Positions 7,827 through 34,615 of a DNA stretch of 64,000 nt are shown in pieces (positions within the stretch are counted from its first letter, which is position 1; the number at the start of each line of letters is the position of its first letter). Origin of the DNA: a virus; the IMG/VR virus record IMGVR_UViG_3300006793_000017, positions 1-64,000 of that record. One strand, written 5' to 3'. Below the pieces are notes generated by a model. That model was given only the letters and a program-made list of their open reading frames with translations, searched no databases and was not told where the DNA came from. The translations under genes and the position numbers were made by a program.

Positions 7827-7827
7827 C

Positions 7828-7908
7828 ATGGCACTAATATTAGAAGATAACAAATTAATGGTAAATACAATGGAACACTACGGAGTAGATAAACATGGCA
7901 GAGTTTAA
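7828..7908 (+). CDS. possible 26-aa peptide between the two giant fibre genes
   Basis: An ATG one base after the upstream stop opens a 26-codon frame (MALILEDNKLMVNTM...HGRV) that overlaps the start of the next fibre gene by 14 nt. It is too short for composition arguments and may only be a leader or a remnant left by the fibre duplication. The next gene's ribosome binding site (CGGAG) lies inside it, so it could couple translation. Confidence 0.25.
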   Translation: MALILEDNKLMVNTMEHYGVDKHGRV

Positions 7909-19167: not shown

Positions 19168-19683
19168 ATGAAAAAAGCACTTATAGGATATCAAGGTTGG
19201 GTTCAAGACATTAGAGAGCCCGGCGAAGAATTTGAAATCTACAATGGTCCTGACGCATCAATCCAGTGGGTAGATGCTCCAGATGAGATCACTTTAGATT
19301 GGACATTAGAATGGTCCCCACAACAACAGCAAATGATTTGGGTAGAAAGAGACGGCCCATACACACAAGATTCAGAAGCACGTAGAGTTGCTTATGGTGA
19401 AGTTGGTGAACAGTTAGATATGATTTTCCACGAAGTTCAAGAATCAGGAAGTATTTCTGCTTCAGGACCGTGGGCATCACACATTTCTACAGTAAAATCA
19501 ATGATTCCAGCACCAGCAGCACCAGAACTAATCACTGAAGAAGAAGCAATGGTTAGAAGAAATACTACAGAACCAAGCGAAAATAAGCCATGTAATTCAA
19601 GCACTTCGGACTTACCAGCTTGGAAAAGATACAGCGGTTGGACTGATAAATCAAACGATCCAGTTCCAGGCATTAACCAGTAA
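19168..19683 (+). CDS. probable tail/fibre assembly chaperone (171 aa)
   Basis: The core has the pattern VAYGEVGEQLDMIFHEV...WASHISTVKSMIP (residues ~70-115). Phage tail-assembly chaperone-like proteins commonly carry the equivalent YGSIGDQLDMLYHD...W..HI..VK, often just downstream of fibre genes. The N-terminal ~65 residues are aromatic and acidic; the C-terminal ~50 are low-complexity and hydrophilic. It is the last gene before a strong terminator and directly follows the three adhesins, consistent with helping fold or assemble them. The chaperone role is inferred from the motif. Confidence 0.55.
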   Translation: MKKALIGYQGWVQDIREPGEEFEIYNGPDASIQWVDAPDEITLDWTLEWSPQQQQMIWVERDGPYTQDSEARRVAYGEVGEQLDMIFHEVQESGSISASGPWASHISTVKSMIPAPAAPELITEEEAMVRRNTTEPSENKPCNSSTSDLPAWKRYSGWTDKSNDPVPGINQ

Positions 19684-19707: not shown

Positions 19708-19732
19708 AAAAGGCTCTTCGGAGCCTTTTTTT
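19708..19732 (+). terminator. rho-independent terminator with UUCG loop
   Basis: Stem AAAAGGCTC / GAGCCTTTT closed by a C-G pair around a TTCG tetraloop, followed by a run of seven or more T. It separates the fibre module from the halogenase/oxygenase operon. Confidence 0.9.
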
Positions 19733-19754: not shown

Positions 19755-19763
19755 GATAAATAA
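19755..19763 (+). promoter_or_regulatory. candidate late promoter of the plus-strand halogenase/oxygenase operon
   Basis: GATAAATAA lies between the upstream terminator and the halogenase ATG, about 37 nt before the start, with AAGGA at normal distance from the ATG. No sigma70-like -35/-10 pair is seen here, so late expression is the likely mode. Confidence 0.6.
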
Positions 19764-19799: not shown

Positions 19800-21422
19800 A
19801 TGAAAATTAAAACAGTAACAATTGTTGGAGGCGGCTCTTCCGGTTGGATGACAGCAGCAGCACTTTCTAAATGTTGCCCACACTTAGATATTACATTAAT
19901 TGAATCTAAAACAATTGGCACAGTTGGCGTAGGTGAAAGTACATTAGGACATATTAATAGATATCTTCAAATGCTTGATCTTAAAGATGAAGATTGGATG
20001 CCAGCATGTAACGCAACATATAAAAACTCAATTCAATTTACAAACTTTAGAGAAAATAAAGGCGAAGTATTTCAATATCCGTTTAGTGATGGATTCGATT
20101 ATACTGATAAGCCAGGTGGCATGGAAAACTGGAGACAGTTAGCAGCACTAAAACCTGAACAATATACTCCAGAAGAATTTGCAAGATTCTTTTGTACAGG
20201 TAATACATTACTTGCTGAACAAAACAAGCAAACTAAAAACGAAGATGGTGTTTTAAGAAACTTTAATTTTGATTGGGATACTGCATATCATTTAGATGCA
20301 GCAGCATTTGGTCAATACTTAAAAGATAAAATTGCTATTCCTAACGGTGTAAAACATATGTATGGCGAAGTACATTCCCATATGAAAGACAATACAAACA
20401 GTTACGTTACACAAGTATTATGTGCAGACGGAACTAAGTTAAACAGTGACTTGTATATTGATTGTACAGGTTTTGCATCTATTATGCTAGAAGGTTGGAT
20501 GGGTTCACACTTTATGAACTTTGAAAAACACTTAGCAAATGATAGAGCATGGGCATGTAGATTACCTTATACTGATAGAGAAAAACAAATGCACAACGTA
20601 ACTGATTGCCATGCACTTGGTAATGGTTGGGTATGGAACATTCCTTTATGGAATAGAATTGGTACAGGCTATGTTTACTCGTCAAGGTTTACAACACCAG
20701 AAAAAGCTCAAGTAGAGTTTAGAAAACATCTTGCAGAAGCACATACACCAGAAATTGCTGAAGCAGCAGAAATGTTTGAAGTTAAAATTAAACATGGTTA
20801 TAGACATAGAGCATGGAAAGGTAATGTAGTAGGTGTAGGACTTAGTTACGGATTTGTTGAGCCATTAGAATCAACAGGACTATTAACTACACACGAAAAT
20901 ATTATTAAACTAGTTGATATATTAAACACAAGAGACGGCCATGTAACTAGAACTGAACGAGAAGGCTTTAACTTTTCTTGTGAATATGATGTTAAAAAGT
21001 TTAGAGACTTTGTATCACAACACTATGCATTCTCTATGAGAGAAGACACTCCATACTGGAGATGGTGTACTGAAATAAATGAATATGATCCGCTTATGCA
21101 TTCAGATGAAATGCAAAAACATTCACAGTATGTTGCTATGATTGGTAACATTGTAGGCGGACATGCGTACGATGAAACATATACAGGAAATTGTTTTATT
21201 ACAGCGGGAATGGGCATTAGAGCGACTGCTACACCTGAGTTAGTTTTACGAGGATCTAGTCGTAGATTCGAAGTAGATATACAAGAGGAAATAGGTGCAG
21301 TTGATCGCATGTATCAACAGTATAAAAATTTTGTATTAGATCATCTAGAGAATCTACCTAGTCATTATGAGTACTTAAAAGAAAACATATATGGCGGGAA
21401 AGATGATTACGAGCTTGATTAA
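19800..21422 (+). CDS. flavin-dependent tryptophan halogenase family protein (540 aa)
   Basis: FAD-binding GGGSSGW at residues 10-16, GVGEST at 43-48, a Lys at 75 in the position of the halogenase catalytic lysine (NATYKNSIQF), and an intact W277-V-W279-N-I-P (WxWxIP) motif, the family signature. Length matches PrnA/RebH-type enzymes (~510-540 aa). Family members use FADH2, O2 and halide to make HOX, which travels to the lysine and halogenates an aromatic substrate; a cyanophage member (VirX1, cyanophage Syn10) has been shown to iodinate diverse substrates. It heads the island and overlaps the next gene. The native substrate is unknown and the family also includes non-halogenating members. 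Confidence 0.85.
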   Translation: MKIKTVTIVGGGSSGWMTAAALSKCCPHLDITLIESKTIGTVGVGESTLGHINRYLQMLDLKDEDWMPACNATYKNSIQFTNFRENKGEVFQYPFSDGFDYTDKPGGMENWRQLAALKPEQYTPEEFARFFCTGNTLLAEQNKQTKNEDGVLRNFNFDWDTAYHLDAAAFGQYLKDKIAIPNGVKHMYGEVHSHMKDNTNSYVTQVLCADGTKLNSDLYIDCTGFASIMLEGWMGSHFMNFEKHLANDRAWACRLPYTDREKQMHNVTDCHALGNGWVWNIPLWNRIGTGYVYSSRFTTPEKAQVEFRKHLAEAHTPEIAEAAEMFEVKIKHGYRHRAWKGNVVGVGLSYGFVEPLESTGLLTTHENIIKLVDILNTRDGHVTRTEREGFNFSCEYDVKKFRDFVSQHYAFSMREDTPYWRWCTEINEYDPLMHSDEMQKHSQYVAMIGNIVGGHAYDETYTGNCFITAGMGIRATATPELVLRGSSRRFEVDIQEEIGAVDRMYQQYKNFVLDHLENLPSHYEYLKENIYGGKDDYELD

Positions 21423-22200
21423 AAAGTTTTTTAATAAGCAAAAGCCACACTTGCGGTTCTATAGTCTGTATCCTGGAGTTGCAGATGTTTATCCTATTTT
21501 TCAAGCATCTAAATTACCAAGAAACTTTACAAAAAATCAACCCCCTCCGCAAGTTGAAAGACTAGAAGCTAACGTTGCTAAGTGTCCTGGAATACGAAAA
21601 GTTGCTATGACAGGATGGATAGTACCAGCACCAGCAGACTTTATTATTAGAACAAATGGTGACGGTGTTAGTTTTGAATGGCGCGAACCGATTAAGTTTG
21701 ACAAAGAAATGCCAGGTACTGAATCATATATTATGATGCATACTGAAAGTCAAACTGTACCTGTGCTTGATGATGTTGAAAACACATTAAGGACAACAGT
21801 AAAAGTAGAAACTCCTTGGAGAGTTGAAGCTTCAGACGATATTGTATTGTTACAATTACCACTTACATATGCTAATGAGCCTAGGTTTACATCAGCACAT
21901 GGTATACTAGATCCAATGCAATCACACGTAATAAACTTACAACTGTTCTGGAATGTTTTAGAAGGAGAAACATTAATTAGAGCAGGAACACCATTAGCTC
22001 AGTACATTCCTATTAAAAGAAGTGAACTGAATTATAGTGCGTACGATTATTCAGTTGCATCACAACCAACTGAAGTTGACATACAGAGAGAAAAAGCATA
22101 TAATTATGCTGCAAACTGCTCGTTGCTAGATAAAGACACTTTAGCATCAAGATTAAAAAGGGCAAAGGCAGTCTTAACTAAGTATAAACACAAAGGATGA
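21403..22200 (+). CDS. unknown protein of the halogenase operon (265 aa)
   Basis: Start placed at ATG 21403, with GGCGGGA just upstream; an in-frame ATG at 21391 would add four residues. Either start overlaps the halogenase 3' end. The protein opens with a basic segment (LIKKFFNKQKPHLRFYSL) and then reads as a soluble alpha/beta protein containing MTGWIVPAPADFIIRTNGDG, PGTESYIMMHTESQ and NLQLFWNVLEGETLIRAGTPL. I do not recognise it securely. Its constant company with halogenase and oxygenase genes suggests a substrate-handling or partner role, but no HxD/H triad is visible. Confidence 0.6.
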   Translation: MITSLIKKFFNKQKPHLRFYSLYPGVADVYPIFQASKLPRNFTKNQPPPQVERLEANVAKCPGIRKVAMTGWIVPAPADFIIRTNGDGVSFEWREPIKFDKEMPGTESYIMMHTESQTVPVLDDVENTLRTTVKVETPWRVEASDDIVLLQLPLTYANEPRFTSAHGILDPMQSHVINLQLFWNVLEGETLIRAGTPLAQYIPIKRSELNYSAYDYSVASQPTEVDIQREKAYNYAANCSLLDKDTLASRLKRAKAVLTKYKHKG

Positions 22201-22205
22201 TTACA

Positions 22206-22469
22206 ATGACAGAAAAAAATAGAAATGTTGTCACTAAGTTGGAAGCTGTAAAAGCTCAACTTCAAGCTGACATGACTAAAAGCAACGAAGAACTTGCCAA
22301 ATTAGAAGAAGAATTTGCTGATTTAAAATTAAATCCGTATGGTATTACTTCTATTGACTTTGCAAAGAGACAAGAACTTTCAACTGATGTTCTAAAGATG
22401 GAAGGCACACTTATGGGTTTAGATTTAGCGATTGAAACCTATGAGGAAGAACATGGTAAGTCCGACTAA
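22206..22469 (+). CDS. small coiled-coil protein (87 aa)
   Basis: Start chosen at ATG 22206, eight bases after AAAGGA; an ATG at 22197 lies directly on that site. Residues 5-45 (VVTKLEAVKAQLQ, then NEELAKLEEEFADL) form a heptad-rich coiled coil, and a second helix follows with MEGTLMGLDLAIETYEEE. No catalytic motif. It is inside the oxygenase operon and overlaps the next gene, so it may act as a scaffold or adaptor; that is speculation from shape and position. Confidence 0.6.
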   Translation: MTEKNRNVVTKLEAVKAQLQADMTKSNEELAKLEEEFADLKLNPYGITSIDFAKRQELSTDVLKMEGTLMGLDLAIETYEEEHGKSD

Positions 22470-23040
22470 TGAGGGAGGCATACACCTCTTTCCGCCTACA
22501 ATTTGGAAATACAGTTATAACTTTCCATATGACGAAATAGAACAATCAATAGAAGAAGTTTTTGATTCAGTTGAGAGAAATTCTAGTTTAGAAAAAGGCG
22601 CCGCCCTATCTACTGTAACTTTGCCTGAAAGACAGCAGCCCCACACTTGGGAAGAACTTGCTGAATTTCACCATTGGCTAGGCACTAAGTTAACAGGAAT
22701 AAAAGAAGAATTAAATTTTTACGAAAGACAGTCATCGGTTATCGGTTCTTGGTTTAATAGACATTACAAGACAGGATATACTGAAGAGCATTGTCACAAC
22801 TATAGTACGTTTGTAGCAAGTTGCTATATCAAATGCCCACCCGATAGCGGCAATATTGTTTTTAGAAATCCTTTAGAATATCACTTCACAAACTTTCCTA
22901 TAGTAAACGAAACACAAACATTGCAAGAAGTGCAATGTAAAACAGGAGATGTTATTATTTTTCCTAGTTGGTTAAAACACTTTGTTACAGAAAACAAAAC
23001 AGACCAAGAAAGAATTGTAATGACTATTAATATTAAATAA
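22453..23040 (+). CDS. putative 2OG-Fe(II) oxygenase (195 aa)
   Basis: Start at ATG 22453, chosen because GAGGAAG sits just before it; it overlaps the coiled-coil gene. The metal-site region EEHCHNYSTFVASCYIK gives H113-x-H115, followed by GDVIIFPSWLKHFV with a distal His176 and an Arg at 187 that could bind 2-oxoglutarate (QERIVMTINI). This layout matches the phage oxygenase family that uses an HxH...H set (2OG-FeII_Oxy_5 type), as does its FPPTIW N-terminus. Substrate unknown. Confidence 0.65.
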   Translation: MVSPTNEGGIHLFPPTIWKYSYNFPYDEIEQSIEEVFDSVERNSSLEKGAALSTVTLPERQQPHTWEELAEFHHWLGTKLTGIKEELNFYERQSSVIGSWFNRHYKTGYTEEHCHNYSTFVASCYIKCPPDSGNIVFRNPLEYHFTNFPIVNETQTLQEVQCKTGDVIIFPSWLKHFVTENKTDQERIVMTINIK

Positions 23041-23843
23041 TGGACTTTAAAATTTGTTATCCAGATGCAAACACTATCGATAGTGTTATAAAGGTAAAGT
23101 CCTTAGAGGACTTTAAAGCCGAGTACTTTGACTTAGGTGAAGGTATTGGATATTGGATTGCTGATAATCCTTTTTATGATGACGGCTTTAATTTTTTTAA
23201 AGGCTTAGTAAAGTCTTTTCCTATTGTAAAAGATAACAATGCAGAAGGTAATTTAGATCCTAATCCATTTGATACAATACATTTACCAGACTGGACATAT
23301 AAAAATATATGTTTCTTATTGCGTGATTTTTATTTAAAAAATGTAGAAAGCAATATGTTTGATCCGCAAATACATGAATGGGGTAATGTATATTATAAAG
23401 AAAGAGCTAAACCTATTAGTTGCTGGCGAATTCCGCATGTTGATTATCCTAAAGGTTTAGTAGGTAATTTATGGTTTACAGGACACGACTTAGTAGATTC
23501 TTGTACAAAACTTTACAAGTACGAAGGAACTGTAAAAGATAGTCTATACGATTTTCAAACAGATAAAGATCATCCTATGTATGAGCGTTGGTCACAAATT
23601 GCAGATAAACCACAAAGAGCAGATGCTTGGTTCAATATGTCAGACGAAGAATTAGCACAATGGGGATTTAAGTATATGGGATCAGCGCCATCAGTAGAAG
23701 GCAAAATGACAATGTATAGAGCAGATATTAGTCATGCAGCAGTTATTTCATCTAAGGTAGATTTTAGATGGAGTCATACATTTGCATTTTCAGATGATTT
23801 TCCTCCTGAAGTTAGAATGGGCGACTTGGAGTTAAGGTTATGA
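23040..23843 (+). CDS. putative 2OG-Fe(II) oxygenase-like protein (267 aa)
   Basis: Starts in a TAATG overlap with the preceding stop. A possible facial triad is visible: IPHVDYPKG (H133-x-D135) and DISHAAV (H232), with Arg243 in FRWSHTFAF as a candidate 2-oxoglutarate ligand. The ~95 residues between the triad halves are longer than in the neighbours. The N-terminal 120 residues are Phe/Asp-rich and unassigned. Assignment rests on motif order and operon company rather than clear family similarity. Confidence 0.55.
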   Translation: MDFKICYPDANTIDSVIKVKSLEDFKAEYFDLGEGIGYWIADNPFYDDGFNFFKGLVKSFPIVKDNNAEGNLDPNPFDTIHLPDWTYKNICFLLRDFYLKNVESNMFDPQIHEWGNVYYKERAKPISCWRIPHVDYPKGLVGNLWFTGHDLVDSCTKLYKYEGTVKDSLYDFQTDKDHPMYERWSQIADKPQRADAWFNMSDEELAQWGFKYMGSAPSVEGKMTMYRADISHAAVISSKVDFRWSHTFAFSDDFPPEVRMGDLELRL

Positions 23844-24466
23844 TGAATATGGATATGTTCTTTCCTACTCCAGTTTGGTGGGAGCAAACAGAACTAGACA
23901 ATACAGACATGCTAAAACTTTGTTATCAACTGCACAAAGAAGATGACAATGGAAGAGTACTAAGTAATCAAGGAGGCTGGCAATCAAAAGATTTTAGGCC
24001 TGATGCATACGATTCAATGAAACCATTACACGATGCAATTATGCAACAAGTAAATCAGTGTATTAGAGATTACGGTTATTACGAAGAATATTGTTATCCT
24101 ATAATGGAAAACTTTTGGTTTAATATTAACAGGCAAGGTAATACTAATTCAGTACATATACACGATAATAGTTTTATATCTGGTGTGTACTATGTAAGTG
24201 CAAAGCCAGGACAGGGTAATTTAAATGTTTACAAAAATCATATGCAAGATTTTATTATTGCATCAGCAGCACCAATGAAAAACTATACACCTATTAGTGC
24301 AGCAGCAATTGCTTATGAACCAGTATCAAGTAAATTAATATTGTTTCCGGGTTGGTTACCGCATGGTGTTGAAAGAAATACAACAGAAGAAGATAGAGTA
24401 AGTGTATCTTTTAATGTTAAATTAATAAGGACAGATGATGAACGACTTCAGCAGAAGAATACTTAG
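23840..24466 (+). CDS. 2OG-Fe(II) oxygenase, FPTPVW/HIH type (208 aa)
   Basis: Classic features of the 2OG-FeII_Oxy_5 (TIGR02466-like) family: FFPTPVW near the N-terminus, GGWQS at ~46, VHIHDNSFISGVYYV with H106-x-H108, and LILFPGWLPHGVERN with H175, then R186 in DRVSVSFNV. Overlaps the previous gene by ATGA, which suggests translational coupling. Members are small stand-alone dioxygenases common in marine phages; substrates are not established. Confidence 0.8.
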   Translation: MMNMDMFFPTPVWWEQTELDNTDMLKLCYQLHKEDDNGRVLSNQGGWQSKDFRPDAYDSMKPLHDAIMQQVNQCIRDYGYYEEYCYPIMENFWFNINRQGNTNSVHIHDNSFISGVYYVSAKPGQGNLNVYKNHMQDFIIASAAPMKNYTPISAAAIAYEPVSSKLILFPGWLPHGVERNTTEEDRVSVSFNVKLIRTDDERLQQKNT

Positions 24467-25154
24467 CGAAACAAACTTAGCGTTTGAAGATAAGCCACAC
24501 TTCTTTAAGAAGTTGCTTGACAATCCTAGCGAATTGGTTACTTGGCAAGATATTGAACAGCACACAAATAAAACAGAACGTTATAACTTTGAACTTATAA
24601 GTCCAGATAGCAGTAAAATTGAAATACCTGTTAGTAGAAAAAATTGGATTTATGATAGAGGTGTGCAAGATAAAGGTTTTATATTTGATAAAGTAAATGC
24701 TGGTTACGGATTAATCTGTTTAGATTACGGATTTCATAATCAAAAAACAATGGATTTTTTAAACGTATTTGAAAATATGTTTAGTATACATGCTGCAATA
24801 CATGTGTATTGTGGGCTAAAAGATTCTAAGTCTTTTACAATACATGATGATTATCCTTGTAATTTTATTATTCAAGCAGAAGGAAAAACTAGATGGAAAG
24901 TGTATAAAAATAAAATTTCTTACATGCATAGAACAGGATTAATGAATGGTAAGTTACAAGATAAAGACATGGAAGTAGATATTGACGTAGAATTAGAACC
25001 GGGAGATGCATTATATATCCCCTCAAGACAGTATCATTGTGCATATCCTAAAGGCAAACGAATATCTCTAAGTATTCCATGCTGGCAGAAACTGCCAACA
25101 GAGCCAATGGAAAATGCAGTAGATAGAAATTATTATAGGATCAACAATGTTTAA
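24435..25154 (+). CDS. JmjC/cupin-type 2OG oxygenase (239 aa)
   Basis: The core FTIHDDYPCNFIIQAEG (H137-x-D139) and LEPGDALYIPSRQYHCAYP (H201) form an HxD...H triad in a cupin barrel, as in Cupin_4/JmjC ribosomal-oxygenase-like proteins, many of which hydroxylate protein side chains. The N-terminal ~70 residues (PHFFKKLLDNPSELVTWQDIEQ) look like the helical lead-in seen in that family. It overlaps the previous gene by 32 nt, and a second ATG at 24438 is equally placed. If the family analogy holds, its substrate is likely a protein; this is inference. Confidence 0.7.
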   Translation: MMNDFSRRILSETNLAFEDKPHFFKKLLDNPSELVTWQDIEQHTNKTERYNFELISPDSSKIEIPVSRKNWIYDRGVQDKGFIFDKVNAGYGLICLDYGFHNQKTMDFLNVFENMFSIHAAIHVYCGLKDSKSFTIHDDYPCNFIIQAEGKTRWKVYKNKISYMHRTGLMNGKLQDKDMEVDIDVELEPGDALYIPSRQYHCAYPKGKRISLSIPCWQKLPTEPMENAVDRNYYRINNV

Positions 25155-25728
25155 ACCGATTGAAATAGAAAATGTAATTGAAAAAGATTACCAAAAACAA
25201 ATATTTGATGTAGTGACTGATATCACTTTTGATTGGCATTTTATGGAAGATACAACATTTGAAAAGAAGGATACTCTTAATACATCTACACCTAGTTTTG
25301 CAAATCTAGTATATCATCCTAACAATAAAGAAAATCCAGGATTAGAATTTTTTACTCCGTTGTTACAGAATACTTGTGCAAAAGCAGGTTTAGAACTAGA
25401 CCAACTGTTACGTATGCGCTTAGGCTTTTTACTTAATACAAAGTATATGATGCCGCATGTAAGATATCAACATAACACACCGCATGTAGATTTTGAAGTA
25501 GATCATTATACTGCATGTTACTATGTTAATGAGTGTGATGGTGAAACTGTTGTATTTCACGAAACAGAAGAGGCAGAAAAATACAAGCCTATGCATAAAA
25601 GTATGCCACAGCAAGGTAAAGTATTAGTATTCAACGGAAGACACTATCATGCAAGTACATGTCCTAAGATGTTTACAAAAAGGATTGTAATGACTATGAA
25701 CTTTACAGCGAGACAAATAGATGGATAA
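25147..25728 (+). CDS. 2OG-Fe(II) oxygenase, prolyl-hydroxylase-like (193 aa)
   Basis: NTPHVDFEVDHYTACYYVN gives H113-x-D115; QQGKVLVFNGRHYHAS gives the distal His (168), and R179 in TKRIVMTMNF is the expected 2-oxoglutarate anchor. The spacing and the 'YYVN(E/D)CDG(E/D)T' strand are shared with the 26931 gene, so the two are paralogs. Overlaps its neighbours by 8 nt on both sides. Substrate unknown. Confidence 0.8.
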   Translation: MFKPIEIENVIEKDYQKQIFDVVTDITFDWHFMEDTTFEKKDTLNTSTPSFANLVYHPNNKENPGLEFFTPLLQNTCAKAGLELDQLLRMRLGFLLNTKYMMPHVRYQHNTPHVDFEVDHYTACYYVNECDGETVVFHETEEAEKYKPMHKSMPQQGKVLVFNGRHYHASTCPKMFTKRIVMTMNFTARQIDG

Positions 25729-26428
25729 AGAGCAGTATATAAATGAATTACTAGAGCGTGACAAACAATCTAGTTCTCGTATTGTTTCTCAAAATCTAAA
25801 GGATAGATTTACATATCCTTACCTACCTACTATGGTAGTTGATAATTTTTATGAAGAGCCTGATCAAGTAAGAGAATATGCACTTAGTTTAGAATACTTT
25901 AAAGGTGATAGAGGAAGTTGGCCAGGTGTAAGAACTAAACTGTTTCATGAATTTGATCAAAAAAGTTTAGACTTTTTTAGTAAAAAATTACTAGTATATC
26001 TTAAAGATTATGGTTATACAGGGTTTGACGAAATACAAACAGCGTTTCATAGTACACCAGAATCATACACACGTGGCTGGGTACATGACGATGATCCTAA
26101 ATTAAATGTAGCAGGAGTTGTATACTTAAACAAAGAAGCACCTCAAGGAACAGGAACAGTAATATACGAAGATATGGATTTTGATGGTGGCAAATATGCA
26201 GAAGTGTTTATGCAAGATGTATTAGATGTTCCAGCAAAAGAAAAAGAAGAATTTAATCAAATACGCGAAGCACAAGTTGCAGAATTTAAAAAAACAGTAA
26301 CAATGGAAAGTGTATATAACAGAGCTATTATTTTTGATACTAGGCTTTGGCATAGTCCTGAACACTTTTATGGTAATACTATTAAAGACTCAAGGCTTAC
26401 ACAAGTATTTTTTGCGAGGGCAATATGA
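25721..26428 (+). CDS. 2OG-Fe(II) oxygenase-like, DUF6445-type (235 aa)
   Basis: Begins its conserved part with MVVDNFYEEPDQVREYAL and SWPGVRT, the pattern of the DUF6445-like oxygenase group. Triad candidates are H122-x-D124 (GWVHDDDPKLNVAGVVYLN) and H211 (DTRLWHSPEHFYG), with R225 downstream. Residues 1-35 are a charged helical extension. The next gene is a shorter, degenerate relative. Substrate unknown. Confidence 0.7.
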   Translation: MDKEQYINELLERDKQSSSRIVSQNLKDRFTYPYLPTMVVDNFYEEPDQVREYALSLEYFKGDRGSWPGVRTKLFHEFDQKSLDFFSKKLLVYLKDYGYTGFDEIQTAFHSTPESYTRGWVHDDDPKLNVAGVVYLNKEAPQGTGTVIYEDMDFDGGKYAEVFMQDVLDVPAKEKEEFNQIREAQVAEFKKTVTMESVYNRAIIFDTRLWHSPEHFYGNTIKDSRLTQVFFARAI

Positions 26429-26934
26429 TTAGAAATATTACACAACCTGTAAAAGTTATTGACAACTTCTTTGAGCAGCCTTGGCTAGTAGAGCATCATG
26501 CAAATAAACAAGAGTTTGTTGACCAAGATAATTCTGTTTTTCCAGGATCACGTTCAGCAACACTAGATGAACTTGATATAGATATGTTTGAAAGATTACT
26601 AGGTAAACTTATTAAACATGTGCTTGGTAAAGAAATGTTTACATTCTTACATTGCGAATATCAAAAAATGAATGAAAGATGTATTGATCAAATTAAACAA
26701 ATCAGCACACAAGCAAATATTGCTGGTACAGTATTTTTAACAGAAAACACTGAACTAGATTCTGGTATTTGTTTTTATGATAATAAACATAATCCTACAA
26801 TAAACATAGAAAATGTTTACAACAGATGTGTACTATGGGATCCTAAAGAACATTATAAAATTCTAAAATACAAACCAAATACACTTATGTTAACGTTTTA
26901 CGGAACAGCAGTACAGAGGTATCCAACACAATGA
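26425..26934 (+). CDS. degenerate DUF6445-like oxygenase paralog (169 aa)
   Basis: Collinear with the 25721 protein: KVIDNFFEQPWLVEHHA and FPGSRS match its VVDNFYEEPDQVREYA and WPGVRT, IAGTVFLTENT matches its core strand, and VYNRCVLWDP matches YNRAIIFD. The HxD segment is replaced by ERCIDQIKQ, so the first metal-binding His is missing, and the distal region is shortened. It therefore probably does not bind Fe(II) in the usual way and may be a non-catalytic partner or a decaying copy. The reading frame is intact and ATGA-coupled to both neighbours. Confidence 0.65.
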   Translation: MIRNITQPVKVIDNFFEQPWLVEHHANKQEFVDQDNSVFPGSRSATLDELDIDMFERLLGKLIKHVLGKEMFTFLHCEYQKMNERCIDQIKQISTQANIAGTVFLTENTELDSGICFYDNKHNPTINIENVYNRCVLWDPKEHYKILKYKPNTLMLTFYGTAVQRYPTQ

Positions 26935-27542
26935 CAAATGATATTTTAATACTTGATGATGTAATTCCTAAAGATTATTCAGACCATATTAGAACATTAT
27001 TAACTGGTTGGGAATTTGGTTGGGTCTTTAATCAGAACATGGTTTCTCCTGATGCAGAACTACAAGGCGAAAGCAATCATGCAGGTTTTAATCACTTTTT
27101 TTACGAAAAACAACAAGCAGTAAGTCAACACTTTAATTTTGTATATCCGCTTGTTTTAAGCATTACTAGTGCGTCTAAGACGCCGTATAACAGGTTAATA
27201 CGCATGAGAGCTAACTTGACCCTACCTAACAAAACAAGCACGTTAGAATACCATATGCCGCACATAGACAGCTTCTTTGAACATTGGAATGCAATTTATT
27301 ATGTAAACGATTGTGACGGTGATACTATTATTTTTAATGAAACAAATGATACTTATGATCCTGGTACTGATGATATTATGCGTATCAAAGAGAACAAGTT
27401 TACAATTAAAGAACGTGTTACACCTAAACAAGGTAGAGTAGTTGTATTCCCAGGAAAGTATTATCATACTAGCAGTTATTGTAAAGATTCTGCATATAGA
27501 TCTGTTATTAACATTAATTTAGATAGGGTTCAACTAGGATGA
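26931..27542 (+). CDS. 2OG-Fe(II) oxygenase, prolyl-hydroxylase-like (203 aa)
   Basis: HMPHIDSFFEHWNAIYYVN carries H111-x-D113 and PKQGRVVVFPGKYYHTSS carries H179; R190 (AYRSVININL) is the likely 2-oxoglutarate ligand. Closely similar in layout to the 25147 gene, with an extra ~15 residues between triad halves. ATGA overlaps at both ends. Substrate unknown. Confidence 0.8.
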   Translation: MTNDILILDDVIPKDYSDHIRTLLTGWEFGWVFNQNMVSPDAELQGESNHAGFNHFFYEKQQAVSQHFNFVYPLVLSITSASKTPYNRLIRMRANLTLPNKTSTLEYHMPHIDSFFEHWNAIYYVNDCDGDTIIFNETNDTYDPGTDDIMRIKENKFTIKERVTPKQGRVVVFPGKYYHTSSYCKDSAYRSVININLDRVQLG

Positions 27543-28096
27543 GCGAATACTACTTACACCAAAGTCAATATATAATCGAGAATAAGACTCAGATTTTTGA
27601 TCATTTAGATAACGCACATGGTGTTTTTAAGAAAATATTTTCTGATAATAATGACAGCACATGGTCATATAATTTGTACAATGTGTTTGCACTAACTGCA
27701 CCTAGCACTATTTTTTATAACATATATAAAGAGCTTGGAACATTTGTAAGAAGTAATATAGGTGATGATCGACCACTGTGGATACAAGCATGGTTAAACT
27801 ATCATAGACCAGATGAATGCTTAACACGACACGGACATGAATTTGATTGGCACGGATATATTAGCATTGATCCTAAAAGTACACAAACTATATTTGATAA
27901 TTGGACTATTGATAACAAGCCAGGTCAAATATATTTAGGACCAGGACATGCTGAACACGAAGTTAAAGTACTAGAACCATATGAAGGTTATAGAACAACA
28001 ATAGGGTTTGATGTACATTCAATACCAAATAATTCTTTTATTAGAAATTATGAAGAAAGACCTTTTGGTAATATGGGGTTAATGCCATTACTATGA
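27539..28096 (+). CDS. putative 2OG-Fe(II) oxygenase (185 aa)
   Basis: WIQAWLNYHRPDECLTRHG begins a double-stranded-helix-like core: H98-x-H100 (TRHGHEFDWHGYISI), a distal His at 137 or 140 (LGPGHAEHEV), and R152 in EGYRTTIGFDV. The HxH variant and the WHGYISI strand resemble other phage oxygenase-like proteins. The N-terminal 75 residues are helical and unassigned. Coupled by ATGA to both neighbours. Confidence 0.65.
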   Translation: MSEYYLHQSQYIIENKTQIFDHLDNAHGVFKKIFSDNNDSTWSYNLYNVFALTAPSTIFYNIYKELGTFVRSNIGDDRPLWIQAWLNYHRPDECLTRHGHEFDWHGYISIDPKSTQTIFDNWTIDNKPGQIYLGPGHAEHEVKVLEPYEGYRTTIGFDVHSIPNNSFIRNYEERPFGNMGLMPLL

Positions 28097-28719
28097 TAGA
28101 AGATTACAAAATTATACGAGGCGCAGTATCAACAGAACTCTGCGAATTTCTTGCATTAGAGTACGAACTGATGGAAGAAGTTTGTAAAGTATTGTATGCT
28201 GGTGCCGACTTATCTGACCTTGAAGAAAACACTTTTGCGAGATACGCTCCCTTGATGTTTGAAACATTGATGGTAAAACTAAATCCTTTGGTTGCAAAAG
28301 AATGGGGTCATGAGTTGGTACCAGTGTACTCTTATGCTAGGATATATTATAAAGGATCGCAACTTAAAAAACACTTTGACAGACCTAGCTCTGAAGTATC
28401 GGTATCAGTTGCAATATCAAAAGAACCAGAATACAATTGGCCAATATACATTAAAAATGAAGATGGTGTTGAACACGAGATTAATTTAGATGTTGGTGAT
28501 ATTGTTATATACAGTGGACGTAGGCACGAACACTGGAGAAACCCGTATGAGGGTAACAAAGTAGTACAAGCGTTTCTACAGTACGTAGAAGCCGATGGAC
28601 CATATTCACATTTAAAATGGGATACGAAACCAGCATTAGGACTTCCTGCAGAATTTGTTCGTCAAGAGATAAAAGACGAAGTGCAGAATGTTAAAGATAT
28701 GCTTGGATTTAAGCGTTAA
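28093..28719 (+). CDS. 2OG-Fe(II) oxygenase-like protein (208 aa), last gene of the plus operon
   Basis: QLKKHFDRPSSEVSVSVAI gives H94-x-D96, and LDVGDIVIYSGRRHEHWRN gives the distal His (145 or 147). The YARIYYKGSQL strand before the triad is typical of phage prolyl-hydroxylase-like proteins. The expected Arg after the distal His is a Lys (156) or is displaced. The stop codon abuts the stop of the convergent 52-aa gene with no space for a terminator between them. Confidence 0.75.
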   Translation: MIEDYKIIRGAVSTELCEFLALEYELMEEVCKVLYAGADLSDLEENTFARYAPLMFETLMVKLNPLVAKEWGHELVPVYSYARIYYKGSQLKKHFDRPSSEVSVSVAISKEPEYNWPIYIKNEDGVEHEINLDVGDIVIYSGRRHEHWRNPYEGNKVVQAFLQYVEADGPYSHLKWDTKPALGLPAEFVRQEIKDEVQNVKDMLGFKR

Positions 28720-28878
28720 TTAGTCGCTGACTTTAGTAGGGCCTGCAACGATTTTTGCTGGACCGTGACGCTCTTCAAAGATTTTTGCTGCTGCTTCTTT
28801 GCTTGATGCTTCACAAGTGTCCTGAGTAATAGGCGCTTTACCTACCTCTTTTCTAATAATCATTTTGTAAGTTGCCAT
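28720..28878 (-). CDS. small conserved-looking protein (52 aa)
   Basis: A 53-codon minus-strand frame starting at ATG 28878 (MATYKMIIRKEVGKAP...ending in AGPTKVSD). It has a TAGGAG ribosome binding site at proper spacing and its own ATAAATA element 23 nt upstream, which together support a real gene. The product is basic and helical (ASSKEAAAKIFEERHG), with no known domain. It fills the whole gap between the two arms of the island. Confidence 0.6.
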   Translation of the reverse strand: MATYKMIIRKEVGKAPITQDTCEASSKEAAAKIFEERHGPAKIVAGPTKVSD

Positions 28879-28899
28879 ATTTGTATAACTCCTATATCT

Positions 28900-30444
28900 T
28901 TATTTATCAATATTCTTAATCCATTCATCGATTGTCCAGAATGGAGCCACAAGCTCTTTGTAGCGTTTTACGTTAGTATTTAGCACGTTTCTGCCTGTTT
29001 CAAGTTTATCTTCAAACGCAGTGCTAAAGTATGTGTTAGAAAATATATGTAATCCCTGTATTACTTGCATCCATGCTGCTGGCGAATAACCGTTAAAAAC
29101 AGGCTCTACACCAACAAGTCCTTGCCAATAATGATCCCAGTCTTTTAGTTTCATTGCTAATGATTCTGGAATACGTTCTGGGTCATGTATATGACTTTTC
29201 CAGAAGTCTGTGTCATCTCTACGTCCTCTAAAATGTAATGCAATAAAGTCTTTAATATCTTCATAAACTGTATTAACTCTATGATTAAATCTATCTCTGT
29301 ACAGCGTGTGATCTCTTCTAGTAGGATCCCACAAATCTTGCATAGCATAAAGTGACTCACAAATAACTGCAATACCGTTTGCTTCTAATGGTTCTAAGAA
29401 ACCACTGCTTAAACCAATTGCAAAAACATTATTTTTCCAACTTTCTTTTGCTACTTCGGGTGTGTATGTAAATGAAGCAATAGGTTCTATATGTTCACCA
29501 CATACACTTCTTGCTTCCTCTAATGCTTGGTCTGCTGTAATATAATTGTTGTCATAAATGTAACCATTACCAGATCTGTGTTGCAAATTAATATTCCAAC
29601 GCCAACCATATTTCATTGCTGTTGCATTTGTTGTTACTGAATACTTGGGTTCGTCCCACCATGCAATAACAGAGTTGTGTGTAAAATGATCTGAGTAATC
29701 AGAGTATTCTGCTCCTAATTTTTTTCTAATTAGTAACTGTGCAAATCCAGTACAATCAACAAACCATTCTCCTTCAATTTCTCTGTTATCATCTAAAATT
29801 AAAGTTGTTATATCACCTTTATCATTTTGTTTGGCATCTACGTATGTGCCTTCGATCAATGTAATATCTCTTTTAAGAGCCACTTCTTTCAAGTATGCTG
29901 CCGTTGCTCTACTCTCATTGTGCCACATAGCAATAATTGGTAGTTCTGATTTAGAAGCACCAAACGGAACTTTATTTTCTTTAATAAAATAGTTTGCATA
30001 GAATGCATCTGCTAAAGGAACATCATTACCTAGCAGTGTAGCCTGATATAAATTCTTTTGCCTTTCAGCTGCTATTATACCGGTAAATTGTCCTAAGTTC
30101 ATATTAAAGACACTAGCGTCAGGATTGTCTGACCATCCATCTAACCAAGGTGCATAATCTGTTTGCAAACAATGAATAAATTCACTACCTACTCCTGACC
30201 AATCTTTAAAACGTCCACCTAGTTTTGGTGTAGCATTTGCTTTAGCAACAAAGTCATCAAAATCGATATCAAGATACTTTAACATATCAACAAATGTAGT
30301 TGTACCGCTTTCACCAGCAATAATAGGTGGCTTATTAGGATCTTCAACAACAGTAATATTCATACTAGGTCTTGTCTTTTTTATTAGTAGTGCAGTTAAC
30401 CAGCCTGCAACGCCACCGCCTAATATAACTGTATTAGAGTTCAT
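28900..30444 (-). CDS. halogenase-family flavoprotein with altered motif (514 aa)
   Basis: FAD-binding GGGVAGW (9-15), AGESGTTTF in place of GVGEST, Lys74 in NATPKLGGRF at the catalytic-lysine position, and the central motif W281-R-W283-N-I-N, where the usual Pro is Asn. FVDCTGFAQLL and IGLSSGFLEPLEANG are standard for the family. It is the most divergent of the four copies here. A GGAGGT ribosome binding site precedes the ATG. Activity as a halogenase is less certain than for the copies with WxWxIP. Confidence 0.75.
   Translation of the reverse strand: MNSNTVILGGGVAGWLTALLIKKTRPSMNITVVEDPNKPPIIAGESGTTTFVDMLKYLDIDFDDFVAKANATPKLGGRFKDWSGVGSEFIHCLQTDYAPWLDGWSDNPDASVFNMNLGQFTGIIAAERQKNLYQATLLGNDVPLADAFYANYFIKENKVPFGASKSELPIIAMWHNESRATAAYLKEVALKRDITLIEGTYVDAKQNDKGDITTLILDDNREIEGEWFVDCTGFAQLLIRKKLGAEYSDYSDHFTHNSVIAWWDEPKYSVTTNATAMKYGWRWNINLQHRSGNGYIYDNNYITADQALEEARSVCGEHIEPIASFTYTPEVAKESWKNNVFAIGLSSGFLEPLEANGIAVICESLYAMQDLWDPTRRDHTLYRDRFNHRVNTVYEDIKDFIALHFRGRRDDTDFWKSHIHDPERIPESLAMKLKDWDHYWQGLVGVEPVFNGYSPAAWMQVIQGLHIFSNTYFSTAFEDKLETGRNVLNTNVKRYKELVAPFWTIDEWIKNIDK
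28901..28907 (-). promoter_or_regulatory. candidate late promoter (ATAAATA, minus strand) for the 52-aa gene
   Basis: TATTTAT on the plus strand reads GATAAATAA on minus. It overlaps the stop codon of the upstream halogenase gene and precedes the ribosome binding site of the 52-aa gene. Confidence 0.5.
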
Positions 30445-31939
30445 GGTTTACCTCCAAGTAACGATCTTTTAATATGTTTAATGCTTCTCGATGTGTGTAA
30501 ATTTTTTCATCTGGCCAATCTGCTAATTGTTTTTTCATTAAATTTGTTAAACTTTCATTGTGTCTTTCTGCAAAATTTTCTTCCCAAAACTTTTTACAAG
30601 CATCATAATCAAAAAGATGTAAGCCGTGCATAACTTGTATCCAATTAAGATAACTGAACATAAGAGACGGATCAACAAAGTGTCCTGAATTAGGATAAGC
30701 AGTTTTAAATGACTGTAGTGTTTCTTCGTTGAATGGTGTTAGAACAATACCTTCATCACACCAACGCCAAAACTCTGAGTCGTTACGTTTTGTAAGATAA
30801 TGTATCTGAATAAAGTCAATAATGTTAGTAGCAATTAAATTCATTCTTTCATTAAATCTTTTTGCAACAGTATCATCATTTTTTCTATAGTACAATAAAT
30901 TACCTACAAGTATATTAACTTGTTGTATTGTTGAACCTATTGATGTTGCTTCTAAAGGTTCTACAAACATAGCACTAAGCCCTAATGATACACAATTCTT
31001 TGTCCAAAATTCGTTAACATATCCAGCATTAAATTTTACACGTTTACCTATTTCTAAATCTTTAATACCTAAATGCTTTTCATAGTGCTGCGATACTTCA
31101 TCATATGCTTGTGTTTCGTTAATAAATTGATCACTAAACACATAACCATTTCCATATCTATCTTGTGTAGGAATTCTCCAACACCAACCACTGCTTAGTG
31201 CAGTTGCTTCTGTATAAGATGGGATGTCTTCAGTTCTAGCAGTAGGAAACGCAATAGCACTATTCATAGGAAGTTGATGTCCACAGTCTATCCATTTTTG
31301 TCCTAGTTTACTTGATATAACTCTATTAAATCCACTACAGTCAATAAAGAAATCACTAGCATGTTTTGTTCCAGCTTCGTCAACTAGCTCTTTAACATTA
31401 CCTGTTTCATCTAAAATTACATCTTCAATATCAACATCTAATACTTCGATTCCTCTTTCTACACATAATCGTGTAAAGAATTCATTTAATTTATTTGTAT
31501 CAAAATGGTATTGAGCAAAACTATCATGAAAAGGTTCAGCATGTAAACTACTAGCAGTTCTTTTCCAAACAGTATCAATAGGATCCCAATTTTCAGCAAT
31601 CATTCTCATCCATTGAACAGGTGCTTCACTAAGTGGATCTAGTGCTGCAAACTGTTCTGTTAAACTATGAAAATAATGTTTCCCATCTCCTTGCCAATTA
31701 GTAAACTTAATACCGATTTTAAATGTTGCTCCTGTTTCTCTAACAATCGTTGGAACATCAACATCAATGTGGTGCATAAATCTTTGCCAGTGTTCTGTAC
31801 TACCTTCACCAACACCAATAATACCAATCTTACTTGATCTTAAAAGTTTTAATTTTAATAGAGGGTGAGATTTTCTAAGTGTTAGTGCTGCAACTAATCC
31901 ACTTGTTCCGCCACCTAATATTGTTAGAGATTTTATCAT
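30434..31939 (-). CDS. flavin-dependent tryptophan halogenase family protein (501 aa)
   Basis: GGGTSG (9-14), IGVGEGSTEHW (41-51), Lys74 (GATFKIGIKF) and an intact W252-C-W254-R-I-P. FIDCSGFNRVI and LGLSAMFVEPLEATSIG are family hallmarks. Very similar in layout to the next upstream gene (31936), implying recent duplication. Starts in an ATGA overlap with that gene and runs 11 nt into the next halogenase gene. Substrate unknown. Confidence 0.85.
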   Translation of the reverse strand: MIKSLTILGGGTSGLVAALTLRKSHPLLKLKLLRSSKIGIIGVGEGSTEHWQRFMHHIDVDVPTIVRETGATFKIGIKFTNWQGDGKHYFHSLTEQFAALDPLSEAPVQWMRMIAENWDPIDTVWKRTASSLHAEPFHDSFAQYHFDTNKLNEFFTRLCVERGIEVLDVDIEDVILDETGNVKELVDEAGTKHASDFFIDCSGFNRVISSKLGQKWIDCGHQLPMNSAIAFPTARTEDIPSYTEATALSSGWCWRIPTQDRYGNGYVFSDQFINETQAYDEVSQHYEKHLGIKDLEIGKRVKFNAGYVNEFWTKNCVSLGLSAMFVEPLEATSIGSTIQQVNILVGNLLYYRKNDDTVAKRFNERMNLIATNIIDFIQIHYLTKRNDSEFWRWCDEGIVLTPFNEETLQSFKTAYPNSGHFVDPSLMFSYLNWIQVMHGLHLFDYDACKKFWEENFAERHNESLTNLMKKQLADWPDEKIYTHREALNILKDRYLEVNHEL

Positions 31940-33423
31940 AACTTATAGGTAGTCCTTCCTTTTAATGTTTCTATTGCTTCTCTACATTTCATCCAGCCGT
32001 TACCTGGAGTTTGTGGTAGCATAGATAATTGTGCTGTATCTTCTGCACGATATTTACTATAACGCTCATTATATAATTTTTTAATGCTAGGAATATCAAA
32101 CATACGCAATCCATGCATAATCTGTATCCAATTTAAATTATCGTAAATTCTAAAACTTCCGTGCATACCATCTTCGGGTAATAATATTTGATTTACAAAT
32201 TGTTTTTTAAAATTTTCTAAGTTTTGTTTATTAAAAGGAGTAACTTCTATTTCATTTTTACACCAACGCCAAAACTTTGAATCTTCTCTTTGTGTAAAAT
32301 AATGCAATTGAATAAAGTCTAACACATTACTTAAACAGTCATCAAATATCCTATTGTATTCATTTATAGTTGCTTGATCGCCACGTTCCCAAGATGCTAG
32401 TGCGCCAACTAATGCTCTTGATTGTTGTATAGTTGTTGAAATACTACTTGCTTCTAAAGGCTCTACAAAGTTACTGCTAAGTCCAATGCTAACACAGTTC
32501 TTAATCCAAAACTTATTAACCTTACCTGAAACAAAATTAATTTTTCTACCTATATTAATTGTATCTGAAAATAAAGATTGTATTTCTGCTATGGCTTCGT
32601 CTTCAGAAATAAATTGATCACTAAACACATAACCGTTACCAAAACGTTCTTGTACAGGACTACGCCAATGCCAACCAGCACTTAATGCTTTAGAAAGTGT
32701 GTAAGGTGGTATCTCTTCTTGGCGTGGTGTTTGAAAAGCAATAGCACTATTCATAGGTAAAAATGATGACCAGTCTACCCATTCAGCACCTAGTTTACTT
32801 GCAATAACTCTTTTGAATCCACTACTATCAATAAAAAAGTCTGCGGTGTGTGTTCGTCTTTCTATGTCGACTACTGAGTCTACAAAGCCCCCGTCACCAA
32901 TGTTAACATCTACAACTTCTGTAGTTATAACGTTAATACCTGCTTCAATGCATCTCTTTTCTAAAAATGCATTTAATTTTTCACTATCAAAATGGAACTG
33001 ATAGTAATCTTCAAATGGCGGACTTACATATCCTTGCATAGGTAAATCCCAATGCAACGATTCAGAATCAACACCTTCTGAAATCAATCTCATCAATGTA
33101 TGTGCATCACCTGTGTATGCATCTACAAATATATATGGTTCTGCTAAACTGTGATAGTAGCTGGTTTTGTCACCGTGCCAATCTTCAAACTTAATACCAA
33201 TCTTAATAGTTGCACCACATTCTCTTGCAAGATCAGTCATTGTAATACCTACTGCATCAGCGAATCTTCTCCAATGTTCAGTACTACCTTCGCCAACACC
33301 AATAGTTCCAATTTTATCAGATTTAATAAGTGTAATGTCTAAGTTGTCAATAGACTTTTTATGATATAGTGCAGTCATTAGTCCAGCATTACCGCCACCT
33401 AGCACAAGTAATTTTTTAATCAT
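31936..33423 (-). CDS. halogenase-family flavoprotein, WHWRSP variant (495 aa)
   Basis: GGGNAG (9-14), IGVGEGSTEHW (41-51), Lys74 (GATIKIGIKF), and W251-H-W253-R-S-P, where Ile of WxWxIP is Ser. FIDSSGFKRVI replaces the usual DCSGF cysteine with Ser. Both it and the 30434 paralog have matched sequence over most of their length (MNSAIAF, GNGYVFSDQFI, FVEPLEA). ATGA overlaps on both sides tie its translation to its neighbours. Confidence 0.8.
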   Translation of the reverse strand: MIKKLLVLGGGNAGLMTALYHKKSIDNLDITLIKSDKIGTIGVGEGSTEHWRRFADAVGITMTDLARECGATIKIGIKFEDWHGDKTSYYHSLAEPYIFVDAYTGDAHTLMRLISEGVDSESLHWDLPMQGYVSPPFEDYYQFHFDSEKLNAFLEKRCIEAGINVITTEVVDVNIGDGGFVDSVVDIERRTHTADFFIDSSGFKRVIASKLGAEWVDWSSFLPMNSAIAFQTPRQEEIPPYTLSKALSAGWHWRSPVQERFGNGYVFSDQFISEDEAIAEIQSLFSDTINIGRKINFVSGKVNKFWIKNCVSIGLSSNFVEPLEASSISTTIQQSRALVGALASWERGDQATINEYNRIFDDCLSNVLDFIQLHYFTQREDSKFWRWCKNEIEVTPFNKQNLENFKKQFVNQILLPEDGMHGSFRIYDNLNWIQIMHGLRMFDIPSIKKLYNERYSKYRAEDTAQLSMLPQTPGNGWMKCREAIETLKGRTTYKL

Positions 33424-34037
33424 TTCTTTTCCTTGGTATGTACTTCTAAACTTGCAACAGAGTCTGTTGCTAGATTAAAATTTATATCCCCATATGGCAT
33501 TGTATTAAAACTTATAATGTATCTATCTTTTTCTCCGAAGTGTGGAGTTGAACTATGAAATAACCAACTAGGAAATAAAACAAGTTTTCCAGCTTCAGCA
33601 TCACTAAACCAATGCGGACTATAATCATGTCTAAGTACTTCTAGTTGTGCTTCTGTTCTATGCTTAACAGGATCTTCAAATACTGTTGCAGCACCTTCAG
33701 TAACATAATACACCCCACTCAAAAAACTCATAGAGTGTCTGTGATATTGTAAACGCATACCTTCTCTAGGCAATGCTCTATTAAACCAACTGCTTGTAAT
33801 TTTAAAACCATCGCAGTCAAATTTTTGTTGTACGTGAACTTGCTTTATGCAATCATTAATCCATGTAAACAATGGATTCAATTCTTTTTTGTCATGTAAG
33901 TTTCTCATAGAACTAATTGTATCAGAATGTTTTACATGATCTGCATACTGCTCACACAAAGGAATCAAAGCATCGTTGTCAAGCTCTGTGTTCTTAAATT
34001 CAAATAGTTCTGTTGGAAACGTAGGTATTACTTTCAT
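33420..34037 (-). CDS. 2OG-Fe(II) oxygenase, FPT/HRH type (205 aa)
   Basis: Same family as the 23840 gene: TFPTELFEF at the N-terminus, LQYHRHSMSFLSGVYYV with H99-x-H101, and GKLVLFPSWLFHSSTPHF with H161, then R172 (KDRYIISFNTM). It lies between the first gene of the minus operon and three halogenase-family genes, with 1-4 nt overlaps. Substrate unknown. Confidence 0.8.
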   Translation of the reverse strand: MKVIPTFPTELFEFKNTELDNDALIPLCEQYADHVKHSDTISSMRNLHDKKELNPLFTWINDCIKQVHVQQKFDCDGFKITSSWFNRALPREGMRLQYHRHSMSFLSGVYYVTEGAATVFEDPVKHRTEAQLEVLRHDYSPHWFSDAEAGKLVLFPSWLFHSSTPHFGEKDRYIISFNTMPYGDINFNLATDSVASLEVHTKEKK

Positions 34038-34615
34038 TAAAACTCAACCCAGCCTGTTAAAAGATATTTTTCACCACTTAATGGCGGATTGCCTCTGTGA
34101 GTATGCGTGTAACTTGCGGGCCAAACAACTAAGGTTCCTTCAGTAGCAGCAATACGCTTCTTTTGGTACAACCATTCTGTTTCTCCGCCTTCGTCAACTG
34201 TATTAAGATACATTCCCCACGCTGCAATTCTACCTGACCTTTCTTTTGTATCTGATTCAAAATGCCAAGTATGATATCCTTCTCCTGGAAGGGTTTTTTG
34301 AAGTTTCATAAAGTAAACTCTGTGATCGCCGCACTCGCCTAACACACTATAATGTGCAGTATATTGCTTCCAGCAATCAATAAATCTATTCATAAAAGTA
34401 TGTATAGTAGGATTGTCTGTTGACATATTCAATGCAGGTTGTTCAAGAAGAAACGCAGCATGATCTGCTTTATTATGTGCTGAATTATCTCCTAAAGTTT
34501 GACGACTAGCAGTTAAATGCAAGTCGTTCAATTTTTCATAATATTCAATAAGGGCTGCACATTCTTCGGGTCTCATAACGCCGGTCCATGTTGCAATATC
34601 GTTCTCTATAATCAT
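34037..34615 (-). CDS. 2OG-Fe(II) oxygenase, phage prolyl-4-hydroxylase-like (192 aa)
   Basis: Start at ATG 34615 (MIIENDIATW), which sits exactly 5 nt after an ATAAATA element; the longer open frame to 34708 gives a Cys-rich, unlikely N-terminus. The core GEGYHTWHFESDT has H118-x-E120, DEGGETEWLY is the family strand, and VVWPASYTHTHRGNPP has the distal His, followed by K183 and GWVEF. This HxE-bearing WHxE type is widespread in marine T4-like phages. No Shine-Dalgarno site. First gene of the minus-strand operon. Confidence 0.8.
   Translation of the reverse strand: MIIENDIATWTGVMRPEECAALIEYYEKLNDLHLTASRQTLGDNSAHNKADHAAFLLEQPALNMSTDNPTIHTFMNRFIDCWKQYTAHYSVLGECGDHRVYFMKLQKTLPGEGYHTWHFESDTKERSGRIAAWGMYLNTVDEGGETEWLYQKKRIAATEGTLVVWPASYTHTHRGNPPLSGEKYLLTGWVEF

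Follow-up and report, generated by a model that had tools for sequence, protein, structure and literature searches.

The window analyzed here comprises the first 64 kb of the 91.8-kb record of an uncultured marine virus (IMGVR_UViG_3300006793_000017), and its positions 19800–34615 form an island of halogenase and oxygenase genes. The preliminary description of this island had counted four halogenase-family genes and about twelve oxygenase genes in two tightly packed blocks flanked by fibre genes. Pfam and PHROG matches together with the ligand residues yielded exactly four PF04820 halogenases and twelve members of the 2-oxoglutarate (2OG)-Fe(II), JmjC and DUF6445 oxygenase families, ten on the plus strand (22432 to 28093) and two on the minus strand (33420 and 34037). 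Within each block, neighbouring genes overlap or almost abut, and fibre genes were confirmed on both sides. In the whole record, PF04820 and PF13759 matched four times each, always within the island. The non-enzyme genes at 21391 and 22197 turned out to be conserved, but a conserved open reading frame (ORF) of 51 amino acids (aa) had been overlooked. The island contains the following genes:

19800–21422, plus strand: halogenase 1, VirX1 orthologue (PF04820, 2.8e-105; best PDB match VirX1 6qgm, 653 bits)
21391–22200, plus strand: phrog_7084 gene, which comes after the VirX1-type halogenase in many cyanophages
22197–22469, plus strand: conserved 90-aa protein
22432–23040, plus strand: 2OG-Fe(II) oxygenase (PF13759, 5.9e-18), HxH...H...R, ligands in 30/30, start codon uncertain
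23040–23843, plus strand: DUF6445-like oxygenase (phrog_1644), HVD...H...R, ligands in 28/28
23840–24466, plus strand: 2OG-Fe(II) oxygenase (PF13759, 6.5e-24), HxH...H...R, ligands in 54/54
24435–25154, plus strand: JmjC_2/cupin hydroxylase (PF08007, 7.1e-18), HDD...H
25147–25728, plus strand: 2OG oxygenase-like (phrog_274), HVD...H
25721–26428, plus strand: DUF6445 oxygenase-like (PF20043, 8.8e-15), H122xD...H211...R225, ligands invariant, bacterial DUF6445 included
26425–26934, plus strand: DUF6445 paralogue, HxD ligands lost, highest ratio of nonsynonymous to synonymous substitution rates (dN/dS) in the cassette
26931–27542, plus strand: 2OG oxygenase-like, HID...H...R
27539–28096, plus strand: 2OG oxygenase-like (phrog_2696), His-rich ligands
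28093–28719, plus strand: 2OG oxygenase-like, HFD...H, PHROG label 'ferrochelatase'
28724–28879, minus strand: conserved 51-aa ORF, last in block 2, absent from the ORF list, 51–68 aa across relatives (MATYKMI...VAGPTKV)
28900–30444, minus strand: halogenase 2, third lineage (PF04820, 2e-86), Lys and EPLE retained
30434–31939, minus strand: halogenase 3 (PF04820, 2.4e-97), sister to the 31936 group
31936–33423, minus strand: halogenase 4 (PF04820, 2.7e-104)
33420–34037, minus strand: 2OG-Fe(II) oxygenase (PF13759, 6e-16), HxH...H...R, ligands in 23/23
34037–34615, minus strand: prolyl 4-hydroxylase-like 2OG oxygenase (PF13640, 7.7e-10), HFE...H...K

The four halogenases scored 291–353 bits for PF04820, compared with a curated cut-off of 21. 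The glycine motif (GxGxxG type) and the catalytic lysine (K79) are invariant in all four, and the EPLE glutamate is retained. The WxWxIP motif is complete in 19800 and 30434, and it reads WHWRSP in 31936 and WRWNIN in 28900. In the tree, 19800 fell within the VirX1 clade with a support of 100/99, and the other three fell outside. The 30434 and 31936 proteins fall into two sister groups that arose by an old duplication and lie near the halogenases of P-SSM2 and S-H38, and 28900 represents a third lineage, with long branches and a less certain placement. The 19800 protein shares 54% identity with its orthologue VirX1 of Syn10 (PDB 6QGM), which lies in the same type of cassette in the Syn10 genome; in contrast to Syn10, the window lineage has a second, convergent block with three further halogenases. 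The active site of VirX1 is large and open and accepts bulky aromatics, and no natural substrate is named (PMC8407142). The published VirX1 passages that were searched do not mention the cassette context. An extra halogenase precedes the VirX1 orthologue in four relatives (loci L017, L018, L020 and L021). The earlier statement that T4-like phages carry an occasional halogenase understated the case, as Syn10, syn9, S-RIM44, P-TIM40 and P-RSM6 have two adjacent halogenases beside oxygenases.

The iron ligands (HxD/HxE/HxH...H) are invariant or nearly invariant across relatives in 11 of the 12 oxygenases. The exception is 26425, in the lineage of which the HxD was lost; divergent relatives (L033, L039 and L040) hold an intact second DUF6445 copy at this place. 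For the 24435 profile, the nearest PDB structures were the NO66/MINA histidyl, YxbC-type and L16 arginyl hydroxylases (1e-14). For 34037 they were prolyl 4-hydroxylases, with a weak match (E = 0.001), and the 25721-type and 28093-type profiles had no significant match in the PDB. The 24435 protein shares the JmjC_2 family and the HxD...H ligands with the ribosomal oxygenases NO66, MINA and YcfD, but it is shorter and its substrate is only predicted. The oxygenase ligands and, in part, matches to oxygenase or DUF6445 Pfam families led us to discard the PHROG labels of phrog_274 ('DNA endonuclease V'), phrog_2954 ('ferrochelatase') and phrog_1644 ('minor coat protein'). Misleading PHROG names affect 25147, 26931, 28093, 23040 and 25721, and they are frequent in cyanophage annotations, where they mask oxygenase runs. 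According to a review of 2010, denV is absent from cyanophages. A function in DNA hypermodification was considered and set aside, as the block showed no match to glycosyltransferases or to TET/JBP.

At the nucleotide level, the island had no match among phage records, and relatives were therefore found by protein searches. Both blocks occur in full order in uncultured relatives down to about 50–60% identity. The two-block form, which adds three halogenases, two oxygenases and the 51-aa ORF, is kept across divergent uncultured contigs, and block 2 was found in uncultured contigs only. All cassette genes tested are under purifying selection, with dN/dS values of 0.05–0.30. Dozens of contigs, drawn from different metagenomes, retain the 18 conserved ORFs within 15 kb; this conservation is far beyond chance, and an assembly artefact is excluded. 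The same data bear on the possibility that unrelated halogenase and oxygenase genes passively accumulated in a hypervariable fibre region. 2OG genes are numerous in cyanophages (24 are known from S-SCSM1 and ten from S-CREM1; PMC9602691, PMC9964418), and both families duplicate readily (25721/26425 and 30434/31936). However, order and content are kept at 40–60% identity across lineages, the active-site ligands are invariant, and selection is purifying on all genes tested, and passive accumulation thus appears improbable.

The 51-aa ORF was present in all checked two-block relatives that span its junction. A conserved small ORF closing block 2, an adjacent subtilase and tailoring-type enzymes could indicate a tailored ribosomal peptide, with 22197 or 28724 as precursor, the halogenases and oxygenases as tailoring enzymes, and the S8 protease 36445 as maturase. 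However, the small ORFs are charged or fold-like, with both ends conserved and no variable core rich in Trp or Tyr. The block showed neither a transporter nor a leader-recognition domain, and in block-1-only phages, no 28724 ORF was found. We regard this explanation as very unlikely.

The upstream flank of the island contains fibre genes and putative signals for transcription:

2238–15721: two giant fibre proteins, of 1862 aa and 2608 aa, that carry six and seven carbohydrate-binding domains of type CBM5/12
16556–17407, 17423–18280 and 18282–19136, plus strand: three paralogous genes for Gly-rich fibre tips (phrog_863 'tail fiber assembly', E ≤ 1e-47; Gly_rich_2)
19168–19683, plus strand: small phrog_1787 gene, located between the tips and the halogenase in every fibre-linked locus
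19708–19729, plus strand: intrinsic terminator-like hairpin (9-bp stem, TTCG loop, T run), dividing the fibre operon from block 1
19755–19762, plus strand: putative T4-type late promoter GATAAATA, 37 nt ahead of halogenase 1

The tip paralogues are rich in Gly, His, Tyr and Asn, and the AlphaFold core of tip 18282 matches the fibre of cyanophage Pam3 and gp38 of syn9 (overall predicted local distance difference test score, pLDDT, of 65). The phrog_1787 protein, the S-CREM1 homologue of which is annotated as 'stress response protein YorD', may be a fibre chaperone. On the 3′ side, the island is followed by a fibre-like gene, a subtilase and a baseplate/fibre connector. The S8 subtilase (36445–38049; PF00082, 2.9e-29) lies within this fibre module.

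The arrangement of tips, phrog_1787, one or more halogenases and oxygenases, with the shorter or the full form of block 1, was found in nine cyanophages (Syn10, S-CREM1, S-WAM1, P-TIM40, S-RIM44, P-RSM6, Sf-FR1, Sf-FP1 and S-SZBM1), in which 5–40 nt separate phrog_1787 from the halogenase. ORFs 69–80 of S-CREM1 represent the block-1 cassette, with no second block at that locus. For the 2OG runs of S-CREM1 and S-SCSM1, the authors invoke host metabolism or antibiotic protection, and the portions of text found contain no link to fibre tips. P-SSM2, S-H38, S-SSM7 and HTVC008M take an intermediate position, with one to a few oxygenases near the halogenase. In S-SSM7 (L087), the halogenase gene is surrounded by genes for 2OG oxygenases, carbamoyltransferases and sugar nucleotides close to a tail fibre gene and may represent a glycan variant of this arrangement. 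Taken together, the block has been maintained as one unit rather than as singly scattered genes, the pattern that would have spoken against the preliminary proposal, and it is linked to fibre tips in two distant phage lineages.

The window cassette proteins are mostly 38–64% identical to those of Syn10 and S-CREM1, the lowest values being 33% for 25147, 31% for a 27539-like gene and 25% for the 34037-like match in Syn10. The window terminase has 53% identity to that of the Pseudomonas jumbo phage PA5oct and 33–34% to those of cyanophages. The sheath has its best matches in Sinorhizobium, Agrobacterium and Pseudomonas jumbo phages, compared with short matches of about 36–40% identity in cyanophages. 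By these comparisons, the window phage falls outside the typical cyanophages. A psbA-type gene was absent from the 14 records examined, which are fragments (one of 162 kb), and therefore, a cyanobacterial host was not assumed. Because most cassette proteins are 38–64% identical to their cyanophage counterparts and the terminase only 33–34%, the likeliest reading is that fibre tips and enzymes would have moved together horizontally.

The motif ATAAATA, which by its form we take to be a T4-type late promoter, occurs 12 times in the window, and 11 of the 12 copies lie in sense orientation 4–80 nt upstream of a start codon. For permutations of its letters, at most 29% of the copies are so placed, except for TAAATAA, which overlaps ATAAATA. 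In divergent relatives (L033–L040), TATAAATA occupies the block-1 promoter position, and close relatives carry a similar terminator element. The 28724 ORF has its own late-promoter-like GATAAATA at 28901–28908 on the minus strand. The assignment of a block-2 promoter is uncertain because CATAAATA near this block is only 5 nt from the likely 34037 start. The motif before block 1 fits the previously suggested expression late in infection.

Two further explanations can be confronted with these results. The enzymes might modify host proteins, e.g., of the ribosome, surface receptors or defence proteins, instead of virion proteins. Ribosomal proteins are hydroxylated by JmjC_2 relatives, and TonB receptors adjoin bacterial relatives of the halogenases, but neither the late-promoter motif nor the linkage to a fibre-tip operon is predicted by this explanation, and phage host-takeover genes are usually early. 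It is considered quite improbable. Alternatively, the enzymes might make or modify a halogenated, hydroxylated aromatic small molecule that acts on the host cell or on competitors, similar to the cyanophage PrnA proposal. Characterized halogenases mostly use free small aromatics, VirX1 is active on many of them in vitro, and protection by a pyrrolnitrin-like antibiotic was suggested by earlier authors. However, no nonribosomal peptide synthetase, polyketide synthase or tryptophan-pathway scaffold gene was seen in the block, two oxygenases look like protein hydroxylases, and the late-promoter motif and the fixed fibre-tip linkage across two lineages also argue against a small molecule, which we consider rather unlikely.

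We favour, with moderate confidence, a late cassette that would hydroxylate and possibly halogenate virion proteins, namely those of the fibres. A protein substrate would fit 24435, which is nearest to the NO66/MINA and L16 hydroxylases, and, more weakly, 34037, which is nearest to prolyl 4-hydroxylases. The preliminary proposal of virion-protein modification is partly supported, by these two enzymes, the late-promoter motif and the fibre-tip linkage of the conserved block in two lineages; a single linear oxidative pathway, halogenation itself and the target residues are still a matter of prediction. The T4-type late machinery would transcribe the fibre genes after replication, together with block 1, which would use a late promoter of its own. 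The JmjC, 2OG and DUF6445 oxygenases would then hydroxylate side chains, and the halogenases would halogenate aromatic side chains, of newly made virion surface proteins. The most likely targets would be the Gly-rich receptor-binding tips, before or during fibre assembly. Reduced flavin would come from a host flavin reductase; a PF01613 flavin reductase was not found in the 91.8-kb record. A possible co-occurrence of an X-P-G site in the tips with the prolyl 4-hydroxylase-like gene was also considered and was dropped after inspection by eye of the loci at hand.

Similar associations exist elsewhere. Bacterial loci with halogenases of the same family (L091–L170) often adjoin TonB receptors, SapC, Cupin_8 and DUF6445, and 16 Plug domains were found in 45 proteins neighbouring bacterial halogenases (drawn from part of 80 loci). 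Here, too, the same enzyme families lie beside a surface protein, and the DUF6445 ligands HxD...H...R are common to the phage proteins, but there are few oxygenases per locus and no fibres. Mimivirus L230, a viral collagen lysyl hydroxylase (PMC5802723), is alike by function in that a viral 2OG oxygenase can hydroxylate collagen; in contrast, it is a single enzyme of a eukaryotic virus, with no halogenase. The TonB-receptor and hydroxylase likenesses are associations, not proof.

Several points weigh against a modification of the fibres. In the window lineage, the terminator splits block 1 from the fibre operon, and the halogenases of Syn1, S-PM2, S-MbCM6 and S-B64 lie away from fibre tips and have no oxygenase run. 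Fibre modules are hot spots of exchange, and the linkage could be passive. Other 2OG genes adjoin repair genes, and 16 enzymes are many for a single target. In the published S-CREM1 virion proteome, just 14 proteins are listed, and the portions of its text that were found mention no modification.

For the phrog_7084 protein 21391, the AlphaFold model (pLDDT 46) allowed no fold assignment, and a profile search against the PDB had no significant match. A distant homologue is encoded by the Halorubrum tailed virus HRTV-7 (L084, 5746–6636) beside thymidylate synthase, with no halogenase or oxygenases annotated nearby. A heptose kinase/adenylyltransferase-like gene and its neighbours at 61051–63324 possibly form a sugar pathway.

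In reviews, cyanophage halogenases are connected with antibiotic protection, and 2OG genes with repair or 2OG levels. The individual genes are already known, but no published account of the conserved tip–halogenase–oxygenase cassette was found in literature searches on halogenases in connection with tail fibres and on hydroxylation in cyanophages, most subscription journals being outside their coverage. We tentatively propose, as a possibility that is still doubtful, that at least two distant phage lineages share a transferable module for hydroxylated and halogenated receptor-binding tips, a new, chemical way of adhesin diversification, and that the natural substrate of VirX1 is the fibre tip. 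VirX1 is a much-studied viral halogenase, and no statement of its natural role was found in the literature searched; among the marine phage genes that lack an explanation, those for 2OG oxygenases rank with the most common. In cyanophages and a jumbo-like lineage, the conserved link to fibre tips offers a specific and testable function for both. Should virion proteins indeed be halogenated or hydroxylated, phage adhesins would gain a post-translational layer that is invisible to the genome sequence alone.

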